Origin: Paraphysoderma sedebokerense
Taxonomy: Eukaryota; Blastocladiomycota; Physodermatomycetes; Physodermatales; Physodermataceae
Assembly (NCBI GenBank): GCA_025602915.1
Contig: JAHLJZ010000085.1
Location: 34,039 to 98,038, forward strand
Length of the DNA: 64,000 nucleotides
Reading direction: 5' to 3'
Every line of letters starts with the position of its first letter. The first letter of the stretch is position 1. Positions 4,991 to 64,000 of the stretch are shown here, piece after piece. The notes beneath the pieces are model-generated. The model had not been told where the DNA came from, did no database searches, and saw nothing but the letters and a program-made list of their open reading frames with translations. The position numbers and the translations under genes are program-made.

Positions 4991-5930
4991 ATGGTTGCCC
5001 TGATTTTGTTCGCGCTTGCTGGCTTGATTTCTGGTTCCCTCGGCCAAACTTCAACGCCACCCAATGGCGGTGGCAAGGTCAGTCAAGAATGTCTCGACTT
5101 CTTCTCAAAAGCGAAAACCAATCAATGTATGGCAAGAGCTAATCTTACCGGTATCGATCCAAATGCAGGATTTGAGCAGGTAGTTCTCGTCTTGCATTAT
5201 CAATTGTCGTATTAATACTGTACTGATACCTTTATTGGTTTCCTATTCATTCCAGGTGCAAACAACGCTTTCTAATTTTATTGAATCGACATGCTCATCT
5301 CAATGTCGTGAATCTGGAAGAATTCGGTTTTCCGAGGTCAAGAAATCATGTACCAGCGTCAGCGATAGAATGTACGCCCTAGGAGCAAATATTGGACTTT
5401 TCGGTCTCGATGTTTTCTGTTCGAAAGCGGGCGATGGTATTTTTTGTCAATTAAAAATGTTAGAGATACTGAAGAAGAACAATTTAAAACCGAACGATTT
5501 TTTGAACTTGACGACGCCGGGGAGCACTAATGCCACGATCAACGTTGAAAAATTGCCCCAAGAATTGGTCTGCAGTGACTGTTTCAAGAAATTTGAAGAG
5601 CAATCGTACGCTGTAAGTAGCTTTTTATTCACTTAACAATTCAGATAGTTTAATAACATTCCAATTTGCATTAATTAGTTTTCTGTTTCAATGAGTAAAA
5701 TCGAAGGATTAAACGACGAATCCAAAACTAATTTCGACAGTTACAAAAAGGCTCGACAAGAAAATGTCGCAAAAATCAATGGCATGTGCGGAGCCGGCTT
5801 TGTGTCTGAAAATCCGACATTGGAGCTCGGAAGCACCCGCAGTGCCGGTTCCAGCGTTGGCGTTGCTGGTTCCACATTACTCAATGCCATTGGTGGTATA
5901 GTCGTTGGTTTTGGTCTCTTGAATTTATAA
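4991..5930 (+). CDS. Secreted, probably GPI-anchored cysteine-rich protein (copy 1)
   Basis: Three exons (4991-5179, 5256-5612, 5679-5930) encode 265 residues. Residues 1-19 form a clean signal peptide. The mature part has scattered cysteine pairs (for example CSSQCRE, LVCSDCFKKFEEQ), a pattern common in fungal wall or surface proteins. It ends in a small-residue stretch followed by the hydrophobic tail GGIVVGFGLLNL with nothing after it, as expected for a GPI-anchor signal. I do not recognise the family. Its paralogue at 9808-10769 keeps both intron positions and phases exactly. Surface location is inferred; function is unknown. Confidence 0.85.
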
Positions 5931-9807: not shown

Positions 9808-10769
9808 ATGATTGCCCTATCTTTGTTCGCGCTTGCTGCCATGGTTTCTGGTTCCCTCGGCCAATCTTTAATGCCACCCAGTGCTGGTGGCAAGATCAGT
9901 CAAGGATGTCTTGACTCTCTCTCAAAAATTCAAAGCAATCAATGCTTGGCAAAAGCTCCTACCAATATCGATCCAAATGGTGGATTTGATCAGGTAATTC
10001 TCATCTCGCATTATCAATTGTCGTTCTGAAATTGTACTGATATCTTTATTGGTTTTTGCAATTCACTTTAGCTTCAAAAAACACTTTCTGCTTTTATAGA
10101 CTCGACATGTCCATCTCAATGTCGTGAGACTTCAAGAAGTGGGTTGTCCGATGTCCAAAAGGCTTGTACCAGCGACACCGATAAAATGGTCGCCGTTGGC
10201 GCAAATGTCGGAATTTTCGGTCTCGATATGTTGTGTTTAAAATCCAGTGACGGAAGTTATTGTCAATTGAAAACGTTAGATTATCTGAAGAAAAACAATT
10301 TGAAACTGAACGAATTGATGAATTGGGCCACACCGGGAAGCACCAACGGCACGATCAACGTTGAAAAATTACCCAAAGAATTGGTCTGTAGTGACTGTTT
10401 CAAAAAAATGGAAGAGCAATCGTACGCTGTAAGTACCTACATCATTCATTCGGCTATCAATTCTTAGCAAAAAACGTTTATACTGGTTTATAACTAATTA
10501 CCATTTGCATTTTTCAGTTTTCTGTTTCGCTAGGCGCAGAAGCATTTAATATCAACCCCAAAGTCAACTTGGACACTTACAAAAAGATTCGAAAAGAAAA
10601 CGTCGCAAAAATTAATGCCATGTGCGGAGCCAACTTTGTCGCTGAAGATCCGAAATTGGAGCTCGGAACCACAGACGCTCCTCCTAGTTCAAGCGCTGAC
10701 GTTGTTGGTTCCACATTACTCAATGCCGTTGGGGGATTAGTCGTTGGTTTCGGTCTTTTGAATTTATAA
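9808..10769 (+). CDS. Secreted, probably GPI-anchored cysteine-rich protein (copy 2)
   Basis: Exons 9808-9993, 10072-10428 and 10518-10769 encode 264 residues. It is a tandem paralogue of the gene at 4991: the second and third exons are the same length, introns sit at the same codons, and most cysteines are shared. It has a signal peptide and ends with the same GGLVVGFGLLNL hydrophobic tail. I chose the ATG at 9808 because it aligns with the start of copy 1. The two proteins differ most just after the signal peptide and in the Ser/Ala-rich stalk before the tail. Function unknown. Confidence 0.85.
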
Positions 10770-32487: not shown

Positions 32488-36062
<3,575 letters not shown>

Positions 36063-36361
36063 GTTGGCTGTTATGAGGATAGCAGTGCTGATGAGAGGAC
36101 GGCAGAAGAGCACCACCACCGATATAATCTAAGCGAGAATGTATTTTTGTGAATGGGATGATGAGAGAGGGAATTCCCTTTCCTTACGTGTTCCCTGGTC
36201 TACGCGTTCCCTCTCGAATGAATTATGTTGAATTATGGCAATTCTGGTGATAAATTTGTATTCAATTGGATTCTATGTACATGTCATCTCTTATGCACTC
36301 TGTCGGTATTATCTCCCACAACACACCATCTATCTCTATATGTCTCTGTCGCGAAATCAGA

Positions 36362-48717: not shown

Positions 48718-51700
48718 ATGAGAGTTTCTATCAAGTTGCAAGACTTTTCGGGTTCCATTTCCCATGGCATTCCTCCAGAGCAGCAGGACACAGCAACGTC
48801 ATCGATTCCCCGATCATCAATCTACTCTTCGCCAGTCACTAATAGATCCAGGAAGAAATCCCCTAAAAACCACCAAGATGTTGGATCGCATCCTAAGCTG
48901 GAACCATTGCGGATTCGTGCTGCAGATAATGCATTCACCGCAGTCGAAACCGTGGATGTGGATGATAGCAAATCAAATCAAGGATGGAACTTGAATCTGT
49001 GCTCTACAATTGATAAGATAAAGGCTATCTGGAAATTTTTCGCCGTCATGAGTGATGCAGAGAAACAATTCTTGTTGCGAGGTTTATTGAAGCGATGCGA
49101 TCCCAAACAACTAGACTATCTCCGTGAAGAATTGAAGTTACAGTCGACGACGAAGGTAAGTTTAATTTATGAACAACTCTGGTACTGTAAAACGGCTTAC
49201 AATTTAATTAGAATAAAACCGATGGATTGATTCATAAAGCACATGGCAACATTTGTCGAAAAAGCAGCTGTAAATGTCAAATTGCAAACTTGATCCCAGA
49301 GTCAGCTTCAGTCTACTCAACCCCCATCATAAATGCAGAACATCCTTTTCATCGAATTCACAAGGCAAATCCCACGTTGTTGACGAAATTACTCAATCGA
49401 ACAGATACGACTGAATCGACTCTGAAACAGCATGGTGATCATATTGCATACAAGAATGCAAATGAATTTCTAATTGTCCGATGTCAGAAATTGCAGGCAA
49501 TCATCGAATGTATCAACAATCTAGCAAGGGAAAGAATCCCTTCCGAACCGTTGGAAACACTGCTATTTATGTTCAAAGACATTTTGAAAGCCAATTTTTG
49601 CACGTTATACAGTATCGACGGAGTCAATGCGACGGTGCATATTAGCAACTTATTCAAGTTCGACACCACATTCCCGTTTACCGATGTGTTGGGGTATTCT
49701 TCACTCTCTAGGGGCAGTCTTGCCAACCGATTCAACCAAAAATCCGCCGATAATACTGCTCATTATCTGTCAGAGCACTATGCAGATGTTCACCCAGATG
49801 TCAGATGTTTTATTTCATGCCCTATCCTATCTGAGGGTGGGAAACTTGTGGCTGTAGTAGAATTTATTAACACGATTGAAGAAAAATCAAATTTTGATGC
49901 TGAAGATGAATTTATTCTTCGTCTGACAAGTTCACTCTGGAACCTGTTCATCAAACATATTCCAGAAGAGACTAATAATCACCGAAAATCTCAGAAATTC
50001 AAGGATGTGTTCCTTCAAATCGCTGAAATATGCAACGCTAATGTTAATTTTGCTGACCTGGTGGATAGAATAGTGGCGATTGCGAGAATCTTGGTCCCAG
50101 CCGAAAAAGCAGCTGTTTCTATTTCAGACAGCAACAGAAACGAGCCGTGGGCATTAGACTCAAAGTCAGGAAGAGTACGGCTCCCCAAGGAGCGAGGATT
50201 CACCATGAATACTACTGAAGGTACAAGCAGAATATCTCAATGCGTAAATACTTTCCTGAAAATCAACATATCTTTATTGTGTAGCACATCAGGATGGAAA
50301 GGAGGGAGGTTTTAAAACGGATGACCACAAAGATTTAATTACCCGGAATATTATCTCTGTCAAACTGAAGGATTCTTCAGGCAACACTATCGGAGACTTA
50401 CAATTGACGAATGTAAGATTTTCACCGATTCTGTACCATTACAAGTTTCTAGTTTAGATGTCATGTTTATCTTTCCTAGAAATTACCCGAAACAAAAGGC
50501 TTTACATTGGCGGATGAAGAGACACTTTCTGCCTTCGGCTGTTTAGGTACTTTATGTCTTTTCCAAGACGAATTACTTTGTGCTCATTCGTGTATGTTCA
50601 GCTGGTAGCATCCTCGAGAAGACATTGAAATTGAAGAATTGCGATCAATCTATCAAGAAATATGCAGATTTCAGTTCCACTGTTCATTCGATTTTAAATT
50701 CGACAGATGCTGCAATACTTGTGTTTGATCAGGACGGCACCTTGGTATTAACTAATTCACCTTGATCGCTATAGCAAATCTAAAGCTAATTACCTAACGT
50801 TCTAAAGGATACTTCATATAATGTCCACCAACTGTGTCTCCGTTATCATTCCTTCCCTCTAAAAATGACGTATAATGACTTAATCGGTCGCCAAAATGAG
50901 CTTTTCCTACAACACGCCGAGCAAGTGCACTCCCACGCAACGACTAAACCGATCTCTAACCCGACATATCGTTGGAAGTTACCAGATGAAACGTTGCTAA
51001 TAATAGATTATCATGTCGCCAGGTTAGATCAAGGCAACGGTTTTGTCATTACTATTCGAAAGGTTGACAGTGAACGGCGTCTCAAAGAAAATTTGGCAAG
51101 GTGATACTCGACGAAAGCCAAACTGTGCCAGCGTTCTCAGCCGAAAAATGTTCTCACAATTCATTGCTCTCTAGATATTTTTCATCTTTACTTGGAAATC
51201 GAATATTGAGTTCTCCGTCTTTAATTGGAGGGTCATGCAGCAGGGGGAGTGTTCTACGAGTGAACCTCCAGAAATGTAGCAATACAGTTTTCTCAGAAGT
51301 CAGAAATGTTATTACCTCATTGCTCACAATGATCTACAGTTTTCTCTTTAGTACAGACTTTGCGGCCTGCCCAAGTGATTGAGCAACTCTCTGCATACTC
51401 GTCGGCGGTTTCTACTGCTGTGAAAAGACACAATGGATACATCTATTCAGCATCGAGGTATAGTAACTATCAGATTCGGTGAAATCCCTGTCTGACTACA
51501 TGGCTTTTCGAATATAATCTAGCGAAGTCATAGTGGCAGTTTTCGGAATCCCGATATCGGAGAATGATGACACATTATGTGCCATACGGTGCGCCTTGGA
51601 AATACGATCTCTGCTGACTACTATGAAAATGGAACATCATGCAGAAGGCAAGACAGGGTTAGACTTCAACTTGGCTGTGACGACCGGTATGTGCGTATCG

Positions 51701-52360
51701 GGATTCATGGCCACAAATGAAGATCAACCTGAGGAGTGGGTTGTCGTCGGAGGTAAGGCTATCGAATATTTGCTCTATTTTCTTTAGCCTCTAGTGTTTT
51801 CTCTATAAATAGTCTCATACTAAGCCTGTTTATCTGCTGCAGAGCCTTTCATGCAAGCCACCCATCTTGATCATTTTGCACGCTTATATAACGCACCGCT
51901 GATAATTGATCAGCCAACAATGGAATTAGTGAGAGCCCATTTTGATTGTCGCGAAATTGATAAAGTATATTTGAAATCTCCGACACAAGTCGATGACAAT
52001 GTCTTGCCATCCACGGTGGATCAAAGCCATCGGTCCGCGGTAACTGCTCTGAAATTAAATAAGGAGTTCAATGTCTCTTTAATTTATGATGTTATCGCTC
52101 CCTCAAGCGGTATTTCATCTCAAAGTTCCGGAAACTTTGAACGAAAACCATACATATGTTATGAACTCGGCCTCTCAGAGTATCGCGTTAGAAATTGGGA
52201 TGCGGCGTTAGCTTATTTCAGAAAGTGCAATAGTTATTTGAATAATGACGGACCTGCGACTTTAATGATTAAGAGATGTAAAGCTGCCATCGAAAAAGAA
52301 GTTGCAATTGGAGACGATTGGAATGGGATTTGGCCAATAGAGTCGTATCATCATTTCTAA
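48718..52360 (+). CDS. GAF/PAS protein with class III nucleotide-cyclase-like domain, probably inactive
   Basis: Ten exons (48718-49155, 49212-50220, 50285-50412, 50480-50546, 50602-50744, 50808-51100, 51175-51286, 51357-51457, 51523-51752, 51843-52360) give 1012 residues. Two GAF-like domains (about 250-385, with FISCPILSEGGKLVAVVEFI, and about 395-560) are followed by a PAS-like segment (AAILVFDQDGTL). A cyclase-homology domain lies at about 693-850 (RYFSSLLGNRIL, SEVIVAVFGIP, NLAVTTGMCVSGFM, WVVVGEPFMQATHLDHF). By alignment with class III cyclases, the first metal Asp is Asn723, the second is Glu765, and the Asn and Arg of VNLAAR are Met and His. A TPR-like tail ends the protein. The architecture resembles the GAF-cyclases of early fungi and protists; activity is doubtful. 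Confidence 0.8.
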
Positions 52361-56365: not shown

Positions 56366-59049
56366 TTAGTTCGAGTCTGTGAGCAGTACATTCGGAATAT
56401 CATGGTACAAGTACTATTTCACATGAAAAACCAAAAACGGTGGTTAGGATTTCAATAATTCGATGGTGAATAAATAAATATGGTGAAGATAGTAAGGAGA
56501 CACTCACGTTTCGGTATAACCCTCCCTTTTTCATTTCCAGAAAACACTTCATCTGAATTTCTTTCTGGAACCATACATTGTGTAAATCTGATTTTTGTGG
56601 AATATACTTTTGCACGATACGTCGTACGATAGACCATGCTTTTGTCGCGGATTCTGGGTGGTGTAGATGTGTGGATGGGGGGTTAGAAAGTGGAGGGGAA
56701 GCGTATAAATCAAGAGCTCGAATGAGACGGTGAAGGTGGGAGTGGATGGTGGTATGATGGGATTTGAGGTAAACCTGTGTATTTATGTCACGTATAGAAA
56801 TAAATTGGTCAGTTTAGGATAAACGGATCGTATTAAGGAAAGGGAAAGGGAAAGGGAAAGAAATATTGACCTCTTCGATATTATCCGTCACGATACAACT
56901 GCCGTTCAAGACGTTGACTAATTTGAATCCCAACTCTTGGTTTGATTCCACCGTGGACCGATGGATCCTTACGCCTCCAAAATCTCGAACGATGAAACCA
57001 AGTATCGAGTAGCCGTTGAACGATGGTGTATCGGAAGACAAAGAGGAAGTAGGTGCGACACGAAGAATCATATTTTGACTGTGACTTTCGAATGCAAAAC
57101 CGCAATGCAGGAGTGGTGGAATAATGGCGTTTAATAGGTGAGTTGCGTAGCTATCGGTCGTGACAAAAGTAATTAAATATTCCAAGACTAGGGTTAGTGA
57201 TTTTGAAAGGATCGATGTAAAGAACAAGATGGTAACTGTCATCGCATACCATTCAAGAAACTCTAGTTTCTTTTCCACAGTATCCAAGCCAAACAAGTTT
57301 ACCACTCTTGCCGCGTCGGTATCCATACCTTCAACACCTACCGCCCGTTCTACCAAGGCCGCACACACAATGTTCTGTTCACCCTCGATTCGTTCATTTT
57401 TGACTAGCTGCTGATCAAACGTTACACCTTGAAATTCAGGGTCTGTCCGGAAAATACATCCCGCTACTTTAACTTGTTCCCCCACAATTGGTGTAGGTAG
57501 AATACCAACCGACGCAATTTCTTTTGTTACCTTCAACGGTTTCGTTGTTGCCACCGATTTTGTAAATACCGCCGACTCTGAATTCGCCATTGAAATTACA
57601 AAATCTACAGAACGAGAAGAACAATACTGTATGACTTTTTCTGCCAACTCTGATATGATGGGTCCATTGTGAACGCTGTAATGACTAATGGTTCTTAAAG
57701 CAGATGTGGTGACTACACTCAACGATAATTTTAAATGGTATCCCTTCAGCACATCAGATATGGGGGAAACAGTTCGTAAACTCGCTTGTGGTAATGCAGG
57801 AATTTGATTTTGAAGGGTATAAAACTGGATATTGAGAAACTCGCAAAGGGATTGGATCGGTTTTTGTTGAGTGGAGTGGTAAGGAAGGAGAATGTGGGTC
57901 TGTGGTAGATCTATTTTGAGCGTTTTGATTAGATGGGGGTGAATGTGGGTGAGGTAGGTACCGTGAGCGTGAACGGAGGACGAAGGAAGAATGCAGAATC
58001 GAATAAAAGTATGGTATGCGAGAGTTTTCGGGATGTCAGTGGGTAATAGAGGGTGCATTGGTAACCGAGTTCGATGCATCTTTTGATAGATAATAAATAT
58101 GAATGAATGTTCCTTCAAATCAATAGAACGAATTAAAAAGGCCAAACCGGATGACTTCCATGACCTTCAATCAGACTTTGCTCCCATTCCCATGACGATG
58201 ACTCAATAGTAGGCTCCATATTTCTAAACCTGTAGAGCTCCGCTATTTCAATAACAAACATAATTCAATGTTAAAATACCATTGGTGCACCATATAAGGA
58301 AAGAAGCAAGTACCTTGATTTTCCACAGAACTTTGCAACTCTGTGGCAATCTTCTCGGACATTTCATGATTCCAGTCACACCATTTAGCTACCATTCCTA
58401 TAATACCCACCGGAGCCAAACATTCTCTCAAACCAGGCAACATATGTTCATTGGTTTCAACAGTTCTCTCTCCATTGCCAATGTACGAATTTTGTACCGA
58501 ACCGTTACAACCGTTCTGTTTCCCGCCATTTGCATGACCAAGGTGTACCCCATCTTTTTTATCGAAATTCGAGGCTCCATCCCCGCCGAAATGGTACACC
58601 GTTGAAATAAAGTCTTCCGGATCGATATACTTTATCTTTTGAACCGTTTCTATACCATTCCTCGTTTCCACCTCAACGTTATCAAAATACGGTAAACTTT
58701 TCAACGGAACCAACAGTCCTTCCGTTACTTCACCATTTTTTGTTTTTGTCCCCTGTATGCCATTTATTTTTTCATCCGCATGGAAACAAACGACCCAAAA
58801 TGAATAGTCAAATTCATGTAGAATTTCGTCAAGTTGGTTTAATTGAGTCGAGTTGAGGAATGAAGATTTTAGCAAGTAACCATGAATAATTCCTTCATTG
58901 ATGAGTGCGGCTATCAATCGTCTCGTCGTTGCGAATTGTGCTTTTCGGTTAGCCAAGTCGGAGTTTGATGTCAGAGATAAAGTGTGGGTTGTTGCATTCG
59001 TTTTACTAACAGTTGGCGTTAATAGTTGCGGTGTAGGGAGCGGGGCCAT
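56366..59049 (-). CDS. NIS siderophore synthetase (IucA/IucC family), rhizoferrin-synthetase-like
   Basis: Six exons (59049-58280, 58229-58148, 58079-57250, 57150-56871, 56774-56508, 56413-56366) give 758 residues. Family features: RRLIAALINEGII at the start, a nucleotide-binding EGHGSHPMHRTR (family EGHxxHPxxKxR), THLLNAIIPPLLHCGFAFES then HSQN, FIVRDFGGVRIH, and the C-terminal FQKEIQMKCFLEMKKGGLYRN. The enzymes adenylate citrate and condense it with amines to make carboxylate siderophores such as rhizoferrin, known from Mucorales, so it probably supports iron uptake. No NRPS or transporter gene lies next to it. The 48-nt last exon, YLYHDIPNVLL, is less certain. Confidence 0.85.
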
Positions 59050-59585
59050 TTGCGGTGTCTTATTCAATGTCAAAGAAGGGAATTTAAGATAACTATATAT
59101 GTAATTCCTGGAAAATTCAACGTTGACTTGTACAGATTAAAAATATTGCGAAAACGTTTGAAGAAAGCCAGTTCGATAAGTCAGCTATTGTCTGTTGGCA
59201 GTCACGGCGACAATCGTGATTCGCGCGTTAAATTAAACACATTTTCGGTCCCTCGAATGTGGATTTGGAAGGAGGCGAGGAATTCCGATCAAGGACGTTG
59301 GCTATTAATTATATTACTATTGGTCAAAGTGTGTATGTTTGCGACTCATCTCTGTATTGAGTGGTAAACTTTCATGTATGTCCCTCTTATGTATTTGTCA
59401 GGTTATTGTCTGAAAAATTTACATACATACATATTTGCTCTATATCCTACCCTACAGTTGGAAAGTCCAAATCAACTATAATTTACAAAAAGTTCAATAG
59501 TAGATAGAAGGAAAATTGTAGTGAAATAATTTAAGTTCTGGCGGCTGCGCTCAACAAAATAGAACTCTGAATTAATTCGTGTCCT
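59050..59585. other. Intergenic region
   Basis: 5' flank of the siderophore synthetase gene and 3' flank of the fusion gene. Nothing else recognised. Confidence 0.5.
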
Positions 59586-61330
59586 CTACCCAACAAGACC
59601 ACCTCCAACTTGCAAATTCAATACCTCTTCTTCGTTTAGGGGTACTTCTTGCTTTAGTTTCTCTTTTCCTTTTCCCTTTGTGAGATCATTCTCTGTGATA
59701 TCAAACCAAAAACCTTCATCTCTTGTGCCATTAGCCGACGCTTTCATGGCGGGTCCGTCTTTGCTCACCTGGCCCATCACAAAGTGTTCTCGACACACAC
59801 TGACGTACGTGTTTCCAATTTCAACCGAGGCACCTGTCGTTGTGACAGTGCCGGACTGTGAGACTCGGAGGTTCATGGTTGCCTTGCCTGATGCGGATTG
59901 GTTGTATCGGGAGAGGAGGATGCATTGATACCGAAAATGAGAATAAGTACGCATCATGTTAATCAGCCATAACGAGAATGGTATGATGATCGCAACAGAT
60001 ACTCACGGCCACAGTGACAAATTGTTTTTATCTCTACCAACTCATCCGCCAACGCCAGCAACAATGCACTGCCTGGGAACGGGTTACCCTGAAAATCAGT
60101 TCGCAACCCATAGCACAATATCGGGATATGAAAGTCGTGGAGGATGTGAAGAAGCTGATGAATCTGTGGGGAATGTAGAAATTGGGCTTCGTCGACTGTT
60201 TTCGTTTGGTGTCGTTAGATACGCGGTCAATCAGGCACTTGAAAGTAGTGAGGTCTTGCAGCGATGATACATACTTAAGAAACAAGCATACTTCTCGCCT
60301 GATTCAATCTGAGTTTTAATGTGTTGGTAGAAATCAAAATTTGCGTCGAATGTGACGGCGTCACTTTGCAATCCGATTCTCGATGTAATCTTGCCGACTC
60401 CATATCGGTCGTCAATAACAGGACACTGAATTCAGGTAGTCGTTTGTATAGAGGATTTATCATCGAACGTCGTAGTGTTAGCATATATGCAGAACTACAG
60501 ACATGAAAGAGTAGTTAAATACAAACAAATAACAAAACATTCATCCCCCGTTCCTGGTAATTGAATGCGCTCTGTAACAATGTCGTCGATTTACCGGCAT
60601 TCATGGCTGGTAGGTACGAAGTGTTCATATTGTATGACAAGGTAGGATATGAATAATTTAATATAAATTTCATCAACCAAACATCAAGGATAGCTTGTCG
60701 GCATACCACTGTAGTAAAAGTATAATTTAGCTCCGCCCCTGATCCGGGTAGACAGATGTAGGGTGGCATTCGGCGGTAACTCGATCGATAAATCTGTAGT
60801 CCGTTTTCGTATTGATGCAGCATGCAATCACATATTTATTGCATTTCAGGGTAAATGTATTGTAAATAGCGGAAATAACAGTAGAAATTTTGATGTCAGG
60901 TTCTGTTTACAATCTCGCGGAGTTGGTGCAAGTAAACACGTCGCCAACCGTGTGTATCAACAACCTATTCACGTTGCATGATAGCATATATTTGCAAAAG
61001 TCAAAGACTTACCGGCATTCAATATTTTCCCATTGTACGACAACACAAGACTGTCCTCCTCTATGCGATAGCCTGAGTATGTGTGATCGGGAGTAACAGG
61101 GACAAATGGCAAGTCGACGTGCAATTGAAGATTTGGAGGGGAGAGTGTAGGAGGTTTTGAAACAGTCAGCATGCACTCAGAGCGAGATGGTTGGGGGAAT
61201 GAAAGACGAGGCAAAGGAAGAGAGTACCGTGTCTCTGAATCCAGGCGAGTTTGATGGAAGCGGGGAGTGTGTGCGAAGGGAGGTTTAGGCAGGCGGTTCT
61301 GTTGGCAAAGTCTCTGACAAAGATCTGCAT
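59586..61330 (-). CDS. Ubiquitin-like domain fused to bacterial-type thymidine kinase
   Basis: Seven exons (61330-61228, 61072-61013, 60793-60707, 60606-60527, 60425-60239, 60195-60007, 59887-59586) give 335 residues. Residues 1-75 follow ubiquitin: [18 protein letters not shown] at the start, then [23 protein letters not shown] and the end [12 protein letters not shown]. Without a linker comes [16 protein letters not shown] (P-loop 84-91), then [36 protein letters not shown] (general base Glu175), [12 protein letters not shown], and a zinc site of C232, C234, C267 and H270. This is the E. coli Tdk type. Cleavage after RGG by a deubiquitinase would release the kinase beginning Ala-Lys. All phases agree; the 43-nt intron at 60238-60196 is the weakest. 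Confidence 0.85.
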
Positions 61331-61436: not shown

Positions 61437-61454
61437 CAGTGTTGTTACCTAACA
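61437..61454 (+). repeat. Left terminal inverted repeat of the hAT element
   Basis: 18 bp, CAGTGTTGTTACCTAACA; identical in reverse complement to 63983-64000. Confidence 0.9.
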
Positions 61455-61658
61455 ATTAACACGTTAATATATTTGTTAAGTTAATATGTTATTTAACATG
61501 GTAATTAACATTCCCAAGAGGTTAACACTATCATTAACAGTGCGTACATGTGACTATCACCATGGTAACCAAACAAGAGTTGACTACCTAGACCAACAGG
61601 CATCGCCGCAACTCTAGCCCTGTGGGAACCGGGAACAACTTCCGAATCATTTACTAAT

Positions 61659-63806
61659 TTGAATGCTATTTCGACATGTGCAGACGACAAAGACTTATAC
61701 AGGGCGCACAAATATCCTGTTATTTCTGGTCAAAAGAATAGATTAGCCAGTCATCTTCGCACTTGTAAGAATGTTACTCAGTCAGTCAAAGATCAATATC
61801 GTATTCTGTCGAAACGAAACGCGGAAAACGAATGTCCTGATGATACCTCACAGTTTTCCTCTTCAGCCACTGCTTCTGAATTTGATTACACCAAGAGACG
61901 AAAACTGACGCAATCACATCTATCACTTATCCGAGTCAACGATACCGTACTTACCAAAGAGGAGCGACGACTGTTCCATAATCAAGTACTAAAAGGCACA
62001 ATTGCCGGAGGGTTACCTTTTCGATGGGTTGAGCACAGTGAATGTAAAAAAATGTTCTCAATGGTTCGACAACAAGCAAAATTACCAAGTCGGCAGCACC
62101 TTGCGGGGCGTGTCCTTAACAGGGTTTACGAGGAGGCGCAGGAGAGTGATTTAAAAGCTTTGCGCGATTGTGATGGATTGACTGTTGCGTTTGATGGGTG
62201 GAATAATGTACGGCGTGAGCATTTAATGGCCGTGGTGGTGATCACAGAGAATGGCGATAGTGTGATTTTGAGGGTTGAGGATGTGTCAGTGAGGCGAAAA
62301 GATGGGGAGACCTGTGAAGTGATTATGAAAGAGGTGTTGCAGGATTTGGTGGAGATGGAATTGCGTCAAAAGGTTGTAGGAATTGTGAGTGACGCTGGAT
62401 CAGACTGTAAGAAGGGCAGGAGACTCATTGTTGAAGCCCATCCCGAACTGCTTTCCGTCGATTGCTTACCACACCAATGGAACCTCCTCGTTGCGGACGT
62501 CTTCAAAGCACTTCCCTCCCTCAGATCCATCGCCGCAGATTCAGTTTCAGTCATAAACTGGTTCAACAATCATTCACGGCCGCTTGGTTACCTCCGCATG
62601 GAGCAGCGAAACCAGTACAACAAAGAAATCATCCTTCATCTTCCCTGCGCTACACGCTGGGGAACTCACGAAAAAGCGTCATCGTCGCTCCTCGCATCAG
62701 CTGCTGCCATCCAAATCGTCGTGGCCAGTAAATACGACTTGCTGATGTCGTGTGTTTCAGCCAATGCTAGACAAAAAGCCATCGAAGTTTTAGATCTGGT
62801 TCAAAATCGTCAGTTTTGGAGGGACCTTGAGAAATTCAATTTTATATTTCGACCCTTAACTGCCCTTATCAACATCTGTCAGTCTGATGATTGTAGACTT
62901 GACACAGCCCTGGAATCGATGGCAAAACTGAGCAAATTCCTCAAAAATCCTCCTCCCCCGGACTCCCCTGACCATGTCAAATTCGACTCCCATATAATGA
63001 CCACATTATCAGCATGCCTCGATAAGAGATGGAAGGCCATGGATCAGGTAATTTTTATTTGCTCTTACTGCCTCAATCCATTGAATTTGAACGCACCACA
63101 CGTCCGGAAGAATGACGAACCTTGGAACGTCGGCACCATGGTCACCTTATTGAGATATCTCCATCTTCGATTGTACAACGTAAAATGTGAACGACTCTTC
63201 CCCGAATTCACTAAGTATTATCAACAACGCGCCACTCTCTTTCAACCTGATGCCATCAAGTCTTTTTGTACGGATGCAACAAATACACGCGAATGGTGGA
63301 AGGTGGTGGCGACGGAGGTCCCTAATTTAGCTAAACTTGCGCTTCACCTCTCCGCCTTCACCCCTCATTCCGCCGCTGTAGAGCGCATCTTTAGCTCCAT
63401 GGGTCATATTCACAGTCGCCGGAGGAACAAGTTGGGAAATGAGAAAGTGATGAAGATGACAAAGATTAAGACAACATTGATGCGGGAGCAAAAGGCGAAG
63501 AGGGAACAAGAAGAGGCATTGTCAGTGATAGGTTCGACGTTGGTGGAGGATGAGACAGCGGAGGAGGGTGGTAGTTTGGATTTAGACGACGTCGACGACG
63601 ACCTTCAGCCGATATCAACAGCACAGGAATGGGAGGCGGAAGTGCAAGCCTGGATGGGAATGTTGGATGAAAATGAGACTGAAGATCCACAGTATTTTGA
63701 GAACATCGTTGTGGATGACGCTTTTATGAAGGAAACGGTGAAAACGAAGTGGAAATTAGAGGAATTATTTGACTTTAGCACTTTACCACCCATAGTGATG
63801 GAATAG
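61659..63806 (+). CDS. hAT transposase
   Basis: An open frame of over 700 codons; coding sequence continues upstream to about 61618 (LWEPGTTSESF), where a splice acceptor CTCTAG precedes it, so the true start is probably in an upstream exon I could not place. A BED-like zinc finger begins the protein (CADDKDLYRAHKYPVISG then LASHLRTC). Catalytic landmarks are GLTVAFDGWNNV (first Asp), VGIVSDAGSDCKKG (second Asp), and the C-terminal hAT dimerisation block HSAAVERIFSSMGHIHSRRR with Glu. No frameshift or stop interrupts it. A possible intron at the CAG-GTAATT near 63049 is rejected because the reading is conserved through it. Confidence 0.88.
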   Translation: MNAISTCADDKDLYRAHKYPVISGQKNRLASHLRTCKNVTQSVKDQYRILSKRNAENECPDDTSQFSSSATASEFDYTKRRKLTQSHLSLIRVNDTVLTKEERRLFHNQVLKGTIAGGLPFRWVEHSECKKMFSMVRQQAKLPSRQHLAGRVLNRVYEEAQESDLKALRDCDGLTVAFDGWNNVRREHLMAVVVITENGDSVILRVEDVSVRRKDGETCEVIMKEVLQDLVEMELRQKVVGIVSDAGSDCKKGRRLIVEAHPELLSVDCLPHQWNLLVADVFKALPSLRSIAADSVSVINWFNNHSRPLGYLRMEQRNQYNKEIILHLPCATRWGTHEKASSSLLASAAAIQIVVASKYDLLMSCVSANARQKAIEVLDLVQNRQFWRDLEKFNFIFRPLTALINICQSDDCRLDTALESMAKLSKFLKNPPPPDSPDHVKFDSHIMTTLSACLDKRWKAMDQVIFICSYCLNPLNLNAPHVRKNDEPWNVGTMVTLLRYLHLRLYNVKCERLFPEFTKYYQQRATLFQPDAIKSFCTDATNTREWWKVVATEVPNLAKLALHLSAFTPHSAAVERIFSSMGHIHSRRRNKLGNEKVMKMTKIKTTLMREQKAKREQEEALSVIGSTLVEDETAEEGGSLDLDDVDDDLQPISTAQEWEAEVQAWMGMLDENETEDPQYFENIVVDDAFMKETVKTKWKLEELFDFSTLPPIVME

Positions 63807-63982
63807 TTGTTGATTTATTATTTCTGCAGTATTCCCTCTGCATGGCTTTGGAGTTTGTACTATCTGCTGCATGTTTTCCTTAAATTTTAAATGAATGTGT
63901 GGTAAATTCGAGCTTAACATGCCTTAACACGTTAATTAACAGCTGGATTTTGTTAACAATATGTTAGGTTGATTTTCCCACG

Positions 63983-64000
63983 TGTTAGGTAACAACACTG
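63983..64000 (-). repeat. Right terminal inverted repeat of the hAT element
   Basis: The reverse complement of this 18-bp end reads CAGTGTTGTTACCTAACA. It is the end of the window, so the right target-site duplication cannot be seen. Confidence 0.9.

Follow-up and report, generated by a model that had tools for sequence, protein, structure and literature searches.

A minus-strand gene in the 64,000-nt stretch of DNA analysed here (hereafter, the window) encodes a ubiquitin-like (UBL) unit joined in frame to a bacterial-type thymidine kinase, and the join falls exactly where the bacterial relatives of the kinase have their start codon. The fusion, which had been proposed in the initial annotation, is almost certainly genuine. 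We consider it fairly probable that the gene is a ubiquitin-fusion precursor of a bacterial-type tdk acquired long ago, whose product is predicted to be cut after Gly75.

Gene structure

The gene extends from 61330 to 59586 in seven exons, whose limits are those of the initial annotation (Table 1), and is read as a single frame of 323 residues followed by a stop codon. Its six introns are all of the GT-AG type and measure 79 to 219 nt. Four of them, following codons 84, 110, 161 and 224, interrupt the kinase part, which suggests that the transfer is old. The GC content at third codon positions is 0.64 in the UBL part, 0.50 in the kinase core and between 0.33 and 0.48 in seven ORFs nearby, a contrast that carries no weight because the pieces compared are short.

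Table 1. Exons and junction of the UBL-thymidine kinase gene (positions in the window)
Feature	Position	Strand	Content
Exon 1	61228..61330	minus	Start codon and ubiquitin-like residues 1-35 (MQIFV...IQRH, phase 1); best of 37 open splice paths
Exon 2	61013..61072	minus	Ubiquitin-like residues ~35-55; carries NGK, the G47-K48 equivalent
Exon 3	60707..60793	minus	End of the UBL, continuing within the same exon into the kinase start AKLYFYYS; a single open frame that contains no Met
Junction DNA	60727..60741	minus	Reads CAG GGG CGG AGC TAA on the spelled strand and spans the codons of RGG/AK; proposed cleavage after Gly75
Exon 4	60527..60606	minus	Kinase P-loop MNAGKST
Exon 5	60275..60425	minus	Kinase DDRYG motif
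Exon 6	60007..60195	minus	Kinase DEAQF motif and first zinc-site cysteines (CHCG)
Exon 7	59586..59887	minus	Kinase lid, VCREH with the second zinc-site residues, a further ~60 residues and the stop codon

The thymidine kinase part

From residue 76 onward the product is, judged by its sequence, a complete E. coli-type thymidine kinase of the TK1 superfamily. The curated model NF003300 (thymidine kinase) matches residues 76-260 over model positions 2-188 of 194 with 273.6 bits, where the cut-off is 195, and the Pfam TK model (PF00265) matches residues 76-259 at 3e-47. For comparison we used the best 80 of at least 571 bacterial relatives confirmed in a genome scan, which share 54 to 61% identity with the kinase. 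Among the 61 columns that are near-invariant (at least 97% conserved) in this set of the best 80, the kinase keeps the bacterial letter in 57, and the four departures are V172I, L182F, V186I and Q244S. The motif MNAGKST, whose Ser90 is common to 70 of the 80, and residues DE163, C220, C222, C255 and H258 agree with the bacterial columns; we take these residues to represent the P-loop, the acidic catalytic motif and the zinc site. The description of a complete kinase with all catalytic and zinc residues is borne out by these data. Thymidine kinases of solved structure are more distant (best 2orw, 4.9e-16). The kinase part comprises 248 residues compared with 185 to 218 (including Met) in the 80 bacterial kinases, and thus has a C-terminal tail of 31 to 64 residues. 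It also differs from the bacterial E. coli-type kinases by its introns, its ubiquitin-like N-terminus and the absence of a start codon of its own.

The ubiquitin-like part

The alignment with ubiquitin begins at MQIFV and ends at RIRGG, covering residues 1-75. At the sequence level these form an N-terminal ubiquitin-fold unit that starts with the initiator Met and matches PF00240 below the Pfam cut-off of 25.4 bits (19.5 bits and E = 0.00086 when the 75 residues are searched by themselves; E = 0.014 in the context of the whole protein). Single-ubiquitin PDB chains match with phmmer E-values of about 0.02-0.07, and the far smaller values at the top of the PDB table arise because tandem ubiquitin copies are summed. 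Since the Pfam match is modest, the role of chance was tested directly by shuffling. The global alignment with ubiquitin contains 31/69 identities (26/72 at stiffer gap costs), and none of 2000 residue shuffles equalled it. Shuffles that retain MQIFV and the last 16 residues also failed to equal it (0/2000), with a best score of 86 versus 89, so the interior of the unit alone adds a clear, not huge, margin. All splice paths that connect the ATG with exon 3 through one or two introns, up to fixed lengths, were listed; 37 of them keep the reading frame open, and of these the modelled path has the highest score for ubiquitin likeness. Among 300 dinucleotide-shuffled upstream regions, 217 of which have any open path, none matched the modelled path (best 67). 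We therefore reject an artefact of splice-site choice; the ubiquitin likeness of residues 1-75 exceeds chance with that choice allowed for.

The diverged character of the unit reported in the initial annotation was recovered on the global alignment. The lysines equivalent to K27 and K48 are kept, K6, K11 and K33 are replaced by Arg and K63 by Pro, and the surface changes are I44 to Ser, L8 to Phe, V70 to Ser and R42 to Val. The tail retains R72, R74, G75 and G76, with Ile in place of L73, while most other positions have changed. L8, I44 and V70 form the patch that is usually gripped by deubiquitinases, and R72 is read by the ubiquitin-activating enzyme. Given 31/69 identities and the changes in the hydrophobic patch and most lysines, the unit is therefore ubiquitin-like rather than a canonical, near-invariant ubiquitin.

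The junction

The join of the UBL and the kinase lies inside exon 3, and therefore no splice choice creates it. Methionines are found at residues 1, 85 (inside the P-loop), 105, 228, 261 and 271 of the product. With no in-frame Met between residues 1 and 85, the kinase can include its first strand only if the UBL is translated; the downstream kinase start that the initial annotation had named as an argument against a fusion was not seen. A model of two separate genes was rejected because the join is within exon 3 and the kinase is without its own start codon. In each of the best 80 of at least 571 bacterial relatives, a start codon (55 ATG, 21 GTG and 4 TTG) stands directly in front of the residue that corresponds to Ala76, so that the last Gly of the tag stands in the place of the bacterial Met and the diglycine immediately precedes the native start of its partner. 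Among 15 viral relatives, the start codon is found just before this point in six and a Met at the residue itself in eight, and one has neither. Cleavage at the diglycine would yield the N-terminus left on a bacterial kinase when the initiator Met has been removed.

The junction letters CAGGGGCGGAGCTAA resemble the end of a hAT-Tip100 transposon. This resemblance is probably a coincidence; the junction itself is the single exact copy of these letters in the window.

Distribution and origin

The junction DNA pattern occurs in six viral stretches, none of which encodes a thymidine kinase when read by eye, and the presence of the same fusion in viruses was set aside on this basis. Its presence in phages or plasmids was set aside as well, since none of the 1649 phage records and none of the 84 plasmid records that match the fusion covers 80% of the query. 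Some of the phage and plasmid matches listed align from fusion residue 44-50; in the two that were examined the start of the annotated gene lies within the match, and the extra part is thus located upstream of the gene.

The tree of thymidine kinases that the initial annotation had suggested for placing the donor was built twice: a quick tree of 90 rows, with the best 80 of at least 571 bacterial relatives, and a careful tree of 63 rows, which remained after the removal of 27 (7 of them viral and 20 either near copies or thinned out), with the query trimmed to 190 residues and a bootstrap that had not settled. In both trees a long branch (0.83 and 0.92) leads to the kinase, which lies among alphaproteobacterial, gammaproteobacterial and other sequences. 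No well-supported set holds the query in either the 90-row or the 63-row tree, and naming a donor from the trees was therefore set aside. A eukaryotic genome is indicated by the introns and the gene content, and Pfam scans of 40 ORFs brought no decisive evidence on the organism.

Relation to known systems

The initial annotation's remark that fungi are generally reported to lack thymidine kinase is too strong: according to the available text of the sources, Rozella and microsporidia have horizontally acquired thymidine kinases (PMC5701793, PMC6282948), and tortoise anaerobic fungi carry one traced to the Alphaproteobacteria (PMC10978972). These cases resemble the transfer proposed here, by description and not by sequence, in that a fungal lineage obtained its thymidine kinase from elsewhere; the parts of the papers that are available make no mention of a UBL fusion.

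A lack of any described example had also been stated. This is correct for the kinase partner, as no report of a UBL on thymidine kinase was found among the literature matches listed, in a search that covered few subscription papers. It does not apply to the kind of fusion, which is already known from ubiquitin-NiSOD of algae, where, according to the accessible part of the report, ubiquitin precedes in frame an enzyme held to be ancestrally bacterial (PMC6332867). The same part describes the distribution of that fusion as patchy and almost restricted to phototrophs, with stand-alone forms known, and points out that unusual ubiquitin fusions are easily overlooked by automated annotation. Both fusions place a ubiquitin-type unit in frame before a bacterial-type enzyme, a superoxide dismutase in the algae and a thymidine kinase here, and are likened by layout rather than by ubiquitin sequence. 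It is thus the combination of so diverged a tag with thymidine kinase that was not found in the literature searched.

The arrangement of an N-terminal ubiquitin or ubiquitin-like unit, a diglycine and a partner directly after it is shared with ubiquitin-eS31, ubiquitin-eL40 and FUBI-eS30. The partners in those precursors are host ribosomal proteins, whereas here it is a kinase; eS31 and eL40 carry a nearly invariant ubiquitin, in contrast to 31/69 identities in our tag, while FUBI likewise has limited identity to ubiquitin. Ubiquitin in cis helps its ribosomal partners to fold, although the cis-chaperone role in yeast is described as modest in the available text (PMC8122580). The splicing factor Sde2 also has a diverged N-terminal UBL with a diglycine that is processed by deubiquitinases: Ubp5 and Ubp15 cut it after the diglycine, and its UBL can be exchanged for ubiquitin (PMC9508853, as far as its text is available), and the human SDE2 UBL, equally diverged from ubiquitin, is reported in the accessible portion of PMC5131917 to be cut at its diglycine. 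The present product differs from Sde2 in that GG is followed by AKLYF and an enzyme partner rather than by KGGFGS, which is present in the human and worm SDE2 chains, and an Sde2 domain; its whole-length similarity to human SDE2 is weak.

Functional interpretation

In the scenario that we favour, a eukaryotic, probably fungal, nuclear gene would encode a precursor with a bacterial-type thymidine kinase as partner. A tdk captured from a proteobacterium-like donor would have become expressed downstream of a UBL coding unit and been joined to it exactly at the diglycine and bacterial residue 2. A host deubiquitinase would most likely cut the precursor after Gly75, and the freed kinase would begin with AKLYFYYS, the N-terminus (Ala-Lys-Leu-Tyr) of the bacterial kinase after Met removal. 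The spent UBL peptide would have supplied the start codon and probably aided folding or yield, and the kinase would phosphorylate thymidine for DNA synthesis. This scenario is based on: i) the open 323-residue frame in seven exons with GT-AG introns; ii) the kinase match above the curated cut-off, with 57/61 near-invariant columns kept; iii) a likeness to ubiquitin that exceeds chance, with R72, R74, G75 and G76 kept amid change; iv) the start of 80/80 bacterial relatives (best of at least 571) at the junction of a kinase without its own start; and v) the precedents of Sde2, human SDE2, the ribosomal ubiquitin fusions and ubiquitin-NiSOD. It is weakened by the UBL score below the Pfam cut-off, by a deubiquitinase patch that reads F, S, S at L8, I44 and V70 together with the loss of R42, by a hAT element that ends 106 bp upstream of the ATG and could harm the promoter, and by the lack of a well-supported tree set identifying the donor.

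The main rival explanation is that the UBL stays on the kinase and determines how long it lasts or what it binds; it might, for example, be a degradation signal confining the enzyme to S phase, as uncleavable ubiquitin fusions are described as degradation signals in the accessible part of PMC8122580. The diverged recognition surface, which common deubiquitinases may not cut, and the retained K48-equivalent lysine are consistent with a permanent domain, for which a join at the exact bacterial start would be needless; the conservation of R72, R74 and the diglycine while much else changed also argues against retention, which we regard as rather unlikely. Loss of function in a real fusion, through decay or lack of expression, appears less likely still. 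It would fit the proximity of the hAT element to the ATG and the long kinase branch in both trees, yet the frame is open across seven exons with every splice signal present and the near-invariant kinase columns are largely retained. That an assembly artefact unites two genes is extremely improbable, given that the join is within a single exon with introns on both sides and brings together the final residue of the UBL and residue 2 of the kinase.

The tag could alternatively derive from the UBL of Sde2 rather than from ubiquitin and bring Sde2-style processing with it. As in SDE2, the loop after NGK is shorter, and a half-domain alignment to worm SDE2 beats 3000/3000 shuffles (2999/3000 at the other gap setting). 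Over the full length, however, the match to ubiquitin has a z of ~10 versus ~4 for human SDE2, whose score is reached by 10 and 12 of 3000 shuffles; the Sde2 model is absent from the Pfam matches up to E = 10, and so is the KGGFGS motif from the product. An Sde2 origin, to which the likeness is suggestive over half of the domain only, is improbable and was set aside. A freed UBL peptide ending in RIRGG might itself be conjugated to other proteins, the gene then yielding a modifier and an enzyme together. Conservation of R72 and the diglycine would agree with such a role, which we nevertheless consider very doubtful, as the surface used by ubiquitin enzymes is changed and the comparable freed tag FUBI has no reported conjugates in the available text of PMC8122580. 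We would give just as little credence to a more elaborate form, where a dedicated deubiquitinase matures the kinase and frees a new conjugation-competent modifier, thereby linking thymidine salvage to ubiquitin signalling.

If the cleavable precursor is confirmed, landing behind a UBL unit would represent a general route for a bacterial gene to eukaryotic expression, with the unit providing a start codon, assistance in folding and an N-terminus free of any scar, and the kinase would be the second bacterial-type enzyme handled in this way after ubiquitin-NiSOD. The finding would also matter for labelling with thymidine or BrdU in a group of organisms commonly described as lacking this enzyme. 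The small, strongly diverged tag offers a chance to ask what a deubiquitinase really needs.

Genomic neighbourhood

The hAT-type element next to the fusion gene occupies 61437-64000 and is complete, with perfect 18-bp inverted ends, the far one coinciding exactly with the window end; it contains an uninterrupted 740-codon ORF with DUF659 and a hAT dimerisation domain. Downstream of the kinase gene, on the minus strand, 56817-58166 encodes a piece of an IucA/IucC-type siderophore synthetase (PF04183, 5.9e-17), and the ORF beside it (58246-59136) has no Pfam match. The tRNA and Rfam scans of the 64,000-nt window found nothing. On the plus strand, GAF-domain and TPR-like ORFs at 49212-52357 may form one multi-domain gene, and the segment 51518-51787 resembles a class III cyclase by eye. 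Two similar cysteine-containing plus-strand ORFs, at 5184-5633 (no Pfam match at 0.01) and 10072-10464 (none at 0.05), apparently belong to a duplicated family. On the minus strand, two muskelin N-terminal domain pieces at 34310-36128 are found beside kelch-repeat ORFs at 32682-34172, and together these probably constitute one muskelin gene.
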